Shown here: one piece after another, positions 6,650 through 49,188 of the stretch
Numbering within the stretch: the first letter of the stretch is position 1
Layout of the letters: each line of letters begins with the position of its first letter
Origin: Allomeiothermus silvanus DSM 9946
GTDB lineage: Bacteria; Deinococcota; Deinococci; Deinococcales; Thermaceae
NCBI RefSeq assembly: GCF_000092125.1
Contig: NC_014212.1
Coordinates: 2,190,001-2,254,000, forward strand
Direction: 5' to 3'
DNA: 64,000 bases
Position numbers and translations under genes: made by a program
Notes under the pieces: generated by a model
What the model was told of the DNA's origin: nothing
What the model saw: the letters and a program-made list of their open reading frames with translations, nothing else
The model's database searches: none

Positions 6650-6673
6650 TGAGGTGGCCCATGGGCCACCTCA
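6650..6673 (+). terminator. Perfect 24-bp palindrome after sucD
   Basis: A perfect self-complementary sequence (12-bp arms beginning TGAGGTGGCCC) ends exactly at the first base of the repeat element that follows. As RNA it would form a strong hairpin. There is no T-tract, so a terminator role is only plausible; it may instead stabilise the sucCD 3' end. Confidence 0.5.
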
Positions 6674-6925
6674 TACCGGATTCAAAAAGAAAGTTTACAA
6701 AACCCAAAACCCCAGAGGCTGTCTTTTTGAATCCAGAGCACTCCCATCGGTCGGCGAAGAAAGCGTATCCCTTCCCAGGGGCGGTATCGCCCACCCCACC
6801 CCGCTATACGGCGAAAGAAGCGTCTCAGCGAAACTACGCCACCGCTACGCGGATAACTTCGGTCGGCCGCCCCGCCTTGGCGGGGCGGAGTCCCCATTCG
6901 GAGATGAACGGACCGAATCTGGTAT
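6673..6925. repeat. MITE-like dispersed repeat A, copy 1 (253 bp)
   Basis: The element is bounded by the imperfect terminal inverted repeats ATACCGGATTC and GAATCTGGTAT. A second copy lies at 37470-37665 in the same orientation. Shared blocks include an internal hairpin GGATTCAAAAAGA / CTTTTTGAATCC, the block GGGGCGGTATCGCCCACC, and a block containing CGAAACTACGCCACCGCTAC. At 6867-6888 it carries a 10-bp stem CCGCCCCGCC / GGCGGGGCGG, replaced by a different hairpin in copy 2. It has no coding capacity. The TA at each end would fit a TA target duplication of the IS630/Tc1 type. Together with the palindrome it fills the gap between sucD and the convergent lyase gene. Confidence 0.8.
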
Positions 6926-6981
6926 CACAAGGGCCGATACCTGGCGGCGAAATCCGCCTCCATACCCGACTCGAGCCCTTT

Positions 6982-21092: not shown

Positions 21093-22042
21093 TCATACCC
21101 TTTCACGTTGATTCCTTCATCCTGGGCCACCAGTGGAAGAGGGTATGCTTGCGTACCGTAGCCGGGTCTGCCGAAAGCACCTGACAGCGCTCCGCCACCA
21201 CCGCCATCATCGCCTCCAGCGTCTCAAAGTACCGGTTGGCCACCGCCTCGTTCACATCCCCTCCGCCGGGAGACGTGCCACCCCGCCCGATCCAGCACCA
21301 CCCAGGCTGTCCCTTCCCCTACCCAGGCCTGAAACTCCTGCAGCACCCAGCTCATCACCTCGCTGTCCATCCCATCTACCAACAGACTCAGGCTGGCCCC
21401 GCTCTCCGGTTCCACAAAGCTGCAGACGTAGAACCATGGGTACCGCTCGCCCGCGGTCGCTCCCCCTGGCGGGCCCACACCTTCGGCAACACCGGTTTCA
21501 GTCCTAGCCGGTGCTCGTCATAGGCAAAGACCCGAACCGCCCCTCCCTCCGCCCGCGCCGCCTCAACCCTTTGGCAGAGGTTGGCCTCCTGCGCCGCCGG
21601 GTCGCCCTTGCGGTGTACCGGCCGGGGCACCTTCAGACGGTAGCCCGGGCGGTAGATCGGGTTGAGCGAAAGCCGCCAGCGCCACCCACTGCCGCAGTTT
21701 CTCGCCCGTCCAAAGACCGCCATCGGGCGGTGGGCTTTGTGCACCTGGGCGCTTTCCTCTGGTCTCAGCTTGGGCCGGCGTCCGGGGTTGGTATGGCGAC
21801 GGTCGCTCAGGGCTTGGGGGCCTTGCGGGTTGTAGCGTTGCAGGGTGGCGTGCACCCAGCGGGGGGTGCGGGTGGTGAGTTGGGCGATCTCCTGAGCCCC
21901 CAATCCCTTTTGGGCAGGGTAGACGGCCAGGAAGCGAAGCTGGGCGATGGGGTCTTTCTCCTGTTTGATGCGGTGTTGCAGTTGCTCCAGGGTGAGGTGA
22001 TTGACCACCGTCATGAAAGAAGGATATTACAAAAAGGGGTAT
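21093..22042 (-). mobile_element. Degenerate IS630-like element
   Basis: About 950 bp. The approximate ends are TCATACCCTTT on the left and AAAAAGGGGTAT on the right, which are imperfect inverted repeats. It is entirely occupied by a broken transposase gene. It lies just after the rnpB terminator and directly against the 3' end of the IS4-like remnant, whose reading frame runs into it. No CTCGAG occurs inside. Ends are approximate. Confidence 0.7.
21103..22014 (-). pseudogene. IS630-family transposase, frameshifted
   Basis: The N-terminal part (from 22014) has the IS630 helix-turn-helix region. The middle has YDEHRLGLKPVLPKVWA, typical of the DDE core. It then shifts frame to continue as RYPWFYVCSFVEPESG and WVVLDRAGWH, and shifts again to end NRYFETLEAMMAVVAERC. 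At least two frameshifts are visible over ~304 codons, so the gene is dead. The order of pieces matches a full-length IS630 transposase. Confidence 0.8.
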
Positions 22043-29689: not shown

Positions 29690-30003
29690 CCGGGCCTGCT
29701 GGTCCCCATCGGGTCTATCAAATTTGGGGCACGCTCGAGAAAACAGGAGATCACGATTCAGTGCGGCCTTCGGGCCGCCCCCACAACTAAAGTTCGGATC
29801 GAGACCAGGGGTCTCCACCGTGTAGCTGTCCGATGCCGGGCGGGGATTGCGCCCCTCACCCTAGGCGTCTATTCGACTCCCCCATCTGATCGCGTTTCCC
29901 ACCATTACGCCTCCCCCGGTGAGGCGTAATGTACCCGGCCCAGCAAACCCCGCTGTACCGAGCATTCGTGGGAACCGCTCTGACTCTCTTACCCTGGCGC
30001 GAC
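29690..30003. other. 314-bp intergenic region between convergent genes
   Basis: It contains a hairpin GCGGCC-TTCG-GGCCGC (29763-29778) without a T-tract, which may end or protect the csaB transcript, and repeat B copy 1 (29891-29980). No gene or further RNA is recognised. Confidence 0.55.
29891..29980 (-). repeat. 90-bp dispersed repeat B, copy 1
   Basis: This copy matches 44528-44617 in inverted orientation with 85 of 90 bases identical by hand alignment. Its ends are imperfect inverted repeats (GCGTTTCCCACCA and, complemented, GCGGTTCCCACGA). It contains a hairpin TTACGCCTC / GAGGCGTAA and a second short one (CAGC / GCTG). It lies 24 bp from the 3' end of the minus-strand gene at 30004, in the same orientation relative to that gene as copy 2 has to its own. 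Confidence 0.85.
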
Positions 30004-37385: not shown

Positions 37386-37469
37386 ATGTAGCAACCCAAC
37401 TCAGGCCGTGTGCCTGGGAGCAGCGGTAATGAAGTCGCTCAGGTTCGAGGGCGGAGCGATTTATGGCTT

Positions 37470-37665
37470 ATACCGGATTCAAAAAGATAGTTATCAAAGC
37501 CAAAAACTCAAGAGGCTATCTTTTTGAATCCTAGAGCACTCCCCTTCCAAGGGGCGGTATCGCCCACCCCTCGCTTCGCTCGGCGAAACTACGCCACCGC
37601 TACGCGGATAACTTCGGTCGGGTTGATTCGTTACCGAATGGTAACGAATCAACCGAATCTGGTAT
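37470..37665. repeat. MITE-like dispersed repeat A, copy 2 (196 bp)
   Basis: It has the same ends as copy 1 (ATACCGGATTC and GAATCTGGTAT) and the same order of conserved blocks. The first internal hairpin is perfect here over 16 bp (GGATTCAAAAAGATAG / CTATCTTTTTGAATCC). Near the right end it carries a 15-bp perfect stem (37621-37635 with 37640-37654) unrelated in sequence to the 10-bp stem at the same place in copy 1. The right end lies inside the 3' end of the HTH gene on the minus strand. It fills most of the gap after tRNA-Ser. Confidence 0.8.
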
Positions 37666-37876
37666 TACCCATTCTCTCTAGCGATCCTCTCCTACTGGTT
37701 TTTCCCCGAACCTCGAGCCGCCCGCCTTCATCCAGGGGAACCAGCCACCGGGCTTTCCCCTGGCCTTTGCCGATATGCCGGGCTCCTTCGATACGCTGCT
37801 CACTACACCATTTCCGCAGCCGAGAAGCCGGTATGTTGAGCACCGCGGCAGCTTCCTTGAGAGTTACCATCTGCAT
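37649..37876 (-). CDS. Small HTH/excisionase-like DNA-binding protein, 3' end altered by repeat A
   Basis: This 75-residue protein starts MQMVTLKEAAAVLNIPASRL, a MerR/excisionase-type winged helix (HTH_17), followed by a basic linker. The ATG at 37876 follows a G-rich stretch (AGGGGGG). The last five codons (NTRFG) and the stop lie inside repeat A, so the natural C terminus was probably replaced when the element inserted. The DNA-binding helix is intact. Target unknown. Confidence 0.68.
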   Translation of the reverse strand: MQMVTLKEAAAVLNIPASRLRKWCSEQRIEGARHIGKGQGKARWLVPLDEGGRLEVRGKTSRRGSLERMGNTRFG

Positions 37877-48794: not shown

Positions 48795-49188
48795 GCCCTC
48801 AAGTTTACCGCCGATCGATTAGAAGCAAGGCGACCTCTGGAATTCATCTGAGCCCTACCCGAGAGGTTGGTTTCGCCGACCGTAGGGCAGTGAAGGGCCA
48901 TCGGCCCCCGGCTGGCGCCGGTACTCAAGTGAAGGGCCATCGGCCCCCGGCTGGCGCCGGTACTCAAGTGAAGGGCCATCGGCCCCCGGCTGGCGCCGGT
49001 ACTCAAGTGAAGGGCCATCGGCCCCCGGCTGGCGCCGGTACTCAGGGGTAGCGTTCCAAGCGAAAGCCCATCTGCTGCATGTGCTTCCCTGGACTCGCTA
49101 CCCGGCTATCGCCACAAACATACGCCGCGGGCGGGGCCGCCAAAAGAAGCAGAGCAAATGGGTTTCTTATCACCTCTACCAATGGCCA
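48795..49188. other. 394-bp intergenic region containing a tandem array
   Basis: It holds the leaderless promoter of the aminotransferase at the left, the 4 x 39 bp tandem repeat at 48891-49046, and ~140 bp with no recognised feature before the thioesterase stop. Confidence 0.6.
48891..49046. repeat. Tandem repeat, four 39-bp units
   Basis: Units start at 48891, 48930, 48969 and 49008. The first three are identical and the fourth differs only at its end. Each unit contains two small hairpins, GGGCC-ATC-GGCCC and CCGGC-TGGC-GCCGG. There are no spacers, so it is not a CRISPR. It lies between two minus-strand genes, upstream of the aminotransferase promoter. Confidence 0.95.

Follow-up and report, generated by a model that had tools for sequence, protein, structure and literature searches.

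A modular, apparently undescribed MITE family with TNA target duplications in Meiothermus, Calidithermus and Allomeiothermus-like genomes

Two copies in the window and the anatomy of the repeat

The window, a 64,000-nucleotide stretch of the Allomeiothermus silvanus DSM 9946 genome (contig NC_014212.1, positions 2,190,001 to 2,254,000), carries two copies of a dispersed repeat, here called family A, and a degenerate IS630-family element (Table 1). Copy 1 lies downstream of sucD, and independent insertions of the same kind of element occur past sucD in genomes G031 (L439) and G013 (L440). Both copies were found where the initial annotation had placed them, although its edges were slightly off, having included one base of the target site duplication (TSD) on each side. 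The parts it described are real: terminal repeats, an AT-rich hairpin and two central blocks are common to the two copies, and near the right end copy 1 has a 10-bp G/C stem and copy 2 a 15-bp stem. Folding recovered the AT-rich and right-end hairpins in both (z values in Table 1).

Table 1. Coordinates of family A copies, their parts and the IS630-family element in the window
Feature	Position	Strand	Detail or basis
MITE copy 1	6674-6924	+	251 bp, TACCGGATTC...GAATCTGGTA
Copy 1 left TSD, TCA	6671-6673	.	sequence
Copy 1 right TSD, TCA	6925-6927	.	sequence
Copy 1 hairpin 1, AT-rich	6678-6734	+	arms 6678-6693 and 6719-6734; z -4.8
Copy 1 internal unit start, variable-copy 39-bp unit type	6771-6792	+	CTTCCCAGGGGCGGTATCGCCC
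Copy 1 G/C hairpin, replaces outer 5' arm of hairpin 2	6867-6888	+	10-bp stem, TT loop; z -2.6
MITE copy 2	37471-37664	+	194 bp
Copy 2 left TSD, TTA	37468-37470	.	sequence
Copy 2 right TSD, TTA	37665-37667	.	sequence
Copy 2 hairpin 1	37475-37531	+	16-bp arms; z -6.7
Copy 2 internal unit start, 39-bp type	37544-37565	+	CTTCCAAGGGGCGGTATCGCCC
Copy 2 block, elsewhere in the genome also within 30-bp tandem arrays	37571-37595	+	TCGCTTCGCTCGGCGAAACTACGCC
Copy 2 hairpin 2	37621-37654	+	15-bp stem, loop GAAT; z -6.8
Degenerate IS630-family element; candidate relative of the mover rather than an established parent of the MITE	21096-22041	-	tips TACC...GGTA; flanks TGA/TGA on its own strand

Further copies exist well beyond the window. 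A search with copy 2 located the family throughout the genome (three contigs totalling 3,721,669 bp, two of them 3,249,394 and 347,854 bp), and 28 complete copies were extracted with their flanks. Exact matches to ATACCGGATTCAAAAAG number 27, all left ends identical at each of 17 bases. The terminal inverted repeats (TACCGGATTC / TACCAGATTC) match at 9 of 10 bp. All typical copies have hairpin 1 (GGATTCAAAAAGAYAG...CTRTCTTTTTGAATCC), the motif AGAGCAC(T/A)CCC and hairpin 2, which is followed by GAATCTGGTA. Elements of minimal form measure ~125 bp and full lengths range from 117 to 474 bp; the 39-bp-type unit is present in 0–5 copies per element and a 41-bp unit, found in some elements, in 1–6 copies. 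The interior has no coding content.

Some of these blocks also occur independently. Two 30-bp tandem arrays of GCGTAGTTTCGCCGAGCGAAGCGAGGGGTG with the family A central block lie outside the family (L103, C1:136547-136725; L104, C1:401924-402046). In the window, four tandem GAGTACCGGCG / GAGTACCGGCGCCAGCCGG units with a 39-bp period occupy the minus strand at 48908-49043, and the same unit is found inside some family A elements elsewhere. A palindromic repeat of ~75 bp (CACCATTACGCC...GGTGAGGCGTAATGTAC...GGGAACCGCTCT) is located at 29900-29983 and 44574 (minus) and has ~20 copies across the genome. Two MITE copies (L049 and L052) adjoin this repeat at the same base.

Target duplications, empty sites and genomic range

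The first base (T) and the last base (A) of the three-base flanks of family A are nearly invariant; the middle base varies but agrees between left and right in most copies. The count was restricted to copies flanked by TNA left and right, for which composition predicts 26–29% agreement; in these, the middle base is identical in 19 of 23 copies in the A. silvanus genome (5.9 expected, p 2e-8), in 59 of 76 in G031 (22.3 expected, p 5e-18) and in 65 of 70 at mixed Meiothermus/Calidithermus loci (19.6 expected, p 3e-30). Thus, the TA duplication expected in the initial annotation gives way to a 3-bp TNA duplication, and empty sites carry a single TNA. For example, genome G001, from the same genus, is uninterrupted and has a single TNA at the sites of L053 and L055. 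At L044 and L046, G001 likewise lacks the element and has small indels near the junction. No alignable empty site was found for either window copy; the sucD-HMGL intergenic region of G001 has no element, but it is not alignable at the copy 1 site. Furthermore, one MITE is nested inside another at L425 (GAAGTTA/TACC...GGTA/TTATCCGCG, with slashes at the junctions). The target duplications, orthologous empty sites and nested insertion bear out the proposal that the repeats are MITEs. The elements are also short, non-coding and multi-copy, with up to ~180 left ends in other genomes, and the MITE identity of family A is well supported.

With crude gene calls in G031, 8 of 56 duplicated targets fall on stop codons compared to 5.3% of intergenic TNA sites, a small excess that is suggestive. 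TNA is always TAA or TGA on one strand and, therefore, a stop codon of this kind that receives an insertion is restored.

A pattern combining TNA with the element end (TNATACCRGATTCHHHH) matched 27 ends in the A. silvanus genome, 110 in Calidithermus chliarophilus (G006), 180 in M. hypogaeus (G027), 132 in G031 and 80–89 in each of G011, G013 and G033. The reversed control pattern had no match in any genome, indicating that the repeat is not due to chance. Named loci among the matches listed are from M. hypogaeus, M. taiwanensis, M. rufus, C. chliarophilus, C. roseus and uncultured Meiothermus. The remaining genomes of the same family have few or no family A ends. None were found in the 16 genomes sampled from one sister genus (g5, probably Thermus), and there are Thermus-like genomes that bear IS630 without the MITE. 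The literature searched yielded no published description of the repeat. Family A is, then, a genuine and apparently undescribed modular MITE family of Meiothermus, Calidithermus and Allomeiothermus-like genomes.

Variation of the hairpins

Of 191 copies, 170 have a regular hairpin 2, made up of a 15-bp stem and a 4-base loop. In 11 of the 191, from two genera, its outer 5' arm is replaced by a 22-bp G/C hairpin (5 copies in the A. silvanus genome and 6 in C. chliarophilus). This G/C hairpin is joined to different inner stems and has TT or AA loops, i.e., it occurs in both orientations. The initial annotation had attributed the changing stem to selection for structure or modular replacement. 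That a single G/C hairpin recurs in both genera supports replacement; selection on RNA structure fares less well, as template switching fits most of the stem changes better.

Across 108 distinct sequences, the regular hairpin 2 stems contain 158 Watson-Crick cells in which both sides have changed, although these counts are inflated by shared ancestry among related copies and are not independent events. Pairing reaches 0.90 compared to 0.78 in shuffled stems, which is strong covariation. The loops also change direction. The reverse complement is present for 20 of 25 loop types, when random draws gave a mean of 2.1 and a maximum of 10 (none of 2000 draws as high as observed). GAAC and GTTC loops, for example, occur 7:7 on one identical stem, and such two-way loops recur on several stems despite the non-independence of the copies. 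In hairpin 1, loop inversion is likely in two cases, of which one (L058) is clear. Loop inversion with simultaneous compensation has been described as a signature of replication template switching (PMC8794818).

The strong covariation of hairpin 2 could also reflect transcription of the hairpins and a functional RNA structure, such as a terminator, an mRNA stability element or a small RNA. The proximity of several copies to terminator-like hairpins or to stop codons, including the G031 stop-codon excess described above, is consistent with this role. However, G.T mismatches, the intermediates of RNA-level change, are not in excess (25 versus 36 A.C), and the occurrence of loops in both orientations is not predicted by RNA-level constraint. 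Together, these two features argue against an RNA-level cause of the hairpin variation. Rfam also gave no match. An RNA function, which is compatible with template switching, is unlikely to be what conserves the hairpins. We infer that template switching is the mechanism that best fits their variation: switching during DNA replication would be the main route that keeps stems complementary and flips loops, and recombination would add the gain, loss and replacement of whole units.

Candidate transposase and relation to known repeats

IS630-family elements with HTH_29/HTH_33 and DDE_3 domains have TACC...GGTA tips and TNA flanks that include TGA/TGA, TCA/TCA and TTA/TTA. The TNA flanks are identical for the window element, three loci in G006 (L444, L466 and L477) and one each in the A. 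silvanus genome (L480), M. hypogaeus (L462) and G011 (L474). At six more loci both flanks are TNA but their middle bases differ. In five of the six (L445, L458, L465, L455 and L472), the unequal flanks are reverse complements of each other (TAA/TTA, TCA/TGA). The features common to the MITE and IS630 are the four-base tip TACC and the TNA target; the remainder of the inverted repeat differs. Because tip and target are shared, an IS630-type transposase is the likeliest mover of family A, and a probable one from these sequence features. The proposal of an IS630-type mover in the initial annotation is thus supported by the tips and flanks of resident elements but not by any IS with the full TACCGGATTC terminus. 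The degenerate IS630 that it reported in the window is present and is a candidate relative of the mover rather than an established parent of family A.

Searches for an autonomous partner were negative in all sets covered. A whole-genome pattern search of A. silvanus found no autonomous element bearing the complete TACCGGATTC terminus, nor was there one in ~2 Mb of G031 or at 80 loci of relatives. All TNATACCGGATTC[CGT] left ends (non-A next base) in 41 genomes of the family likewise gave no autonomous partner. Several candidates were rejected. At C1:3003482 (L056), a truncated MITE left end adjoins a degenerate IS630 with TACCCC...GGGTA ends, and this locus was discarded as a direct IS630 parent. 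In G031, a TACC-ended element of 1343 bp proved to be a MITE whose hairpin 1 loop contains another DDE IS (PF01609 match), and a 1166-bp composite (L159) contains an IS5-type element. The end pairs at 2247 and 3418 bp are separate MITEs side by side. Also rejected was a 35-copy IS located inside MITE tips (L003 and L058), with ends TAGGAGTTACGCAG and duplications of 5–6 bp.

The IS at L003 and L058, a ~1.1-kb DDE insertion sequence (~35 copies, ends TAGGAGTTACGCAGTTG, 5–6 bp duplication), is inserted three times at the same MITE tip (ACCGG/CTGGT), at L003 and L058 in the A. silvanus genome and at L072 in G021. This tip is a possible hotspot for the element.

An IS5-family (IS1031-like) transposase could also mobilize the MITE. 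IS1031-type elements are known for TNA duplication, IS5-family elements of these same genomes also duplicate TNA, and an IS5-type element with GAGGCTGTCGTAAAAG ends duplicates TGA in G031, where it is located in a MITE composite. However, the IS5 tips (GAGGCTGTC/GAAACTGTT) are unrelated to TACCGGATTC, whereas those of IS630 share TACC and the target, making an IS5-family mover quite improbable. Dispersal through homologous recombination or gene conversion among intergenic repeats, in place of transposition, suggested by mosaic units common to other repeats, by L049 and L052 having the same left but different right flanks and by some copies without matching TSDs, is largely refuted and very hard to credit given the exact ends and TNA duplication of most copies and the clean empty sites, though recombination remains valid for internal unit changes.

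We consider it likely that family A is a MITE inserted at TNA by an IS630-family transposase acting in trans, with palindromic units rewritten by template switching. The transposase would probably recognize the ends TACC(G/A)GATTC, and insertion at TNA would duplicate those three bases. The interior consists of exchangeable palindromic units in series: hairpin 1, AGAGCAC(T/A)CCC, 0–6 tandem 39-/41-bp units and hairpin 2.

The RUP, Correia and ERIC-type MITEs are linked to IS630 elements and have TA duplications. Family A resembles them in being short and non-coding, with inverted-repeat ends and presumed trans mobilization by an IS630-family transposase. It differs in its 3-bp TNA target and in sharing only the TACC tip with resident IS630 elements. 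In architecture, family A is similar to the BOX elements of Streptococcus pneumoniae, which have a boxA-boxBn-boxC organization (PMC3049150): both have fixed end modules, variable tandem internal units, strong predicted folding and high copy number. Unlike BOX, family A has a clear 3-bp TNA duplication, TACC...GGTA ends and units that also form independent arrays. The BrickBuilt MITE of Porphyromonas gingivalis similarly holds a variable tandem array, of 23-bp units, but it has ends matching the IS5 family, duplications of varying length and 19 copies in one genome (PMC4596501). ISTth6 of Thermus belongs to the IS630 family and occurs in the same bacterial family as the elements described here, yet its direct repeats are 2 bp (PMC6352166, table 2); the IS630 copies in our study have TNA flanks, which match each other at roughly half of the loci.

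Family A is a major repeat of Meiothermus, Calidithermus and Allomeiothermus-like genomes and suggests that one branch of IS630 uses TNA, a 3-bp target, in place of TA. We lean, by a modest degree, toward a broader reading in which a TNA-specific IS630 branch of the Thermaceae drives a large MITE family, undescribed and of BOX-like modularity, with template-switch events recorded in its hundreds of sister palindromes; such events occur at the DNA level and can mimic RNA covariation. These hundreds of related hairpins, with their flipped loops and compensated stems, are a natural data set for bacterial template switching and a warning that covariation alone is no proof of a functional RNA.
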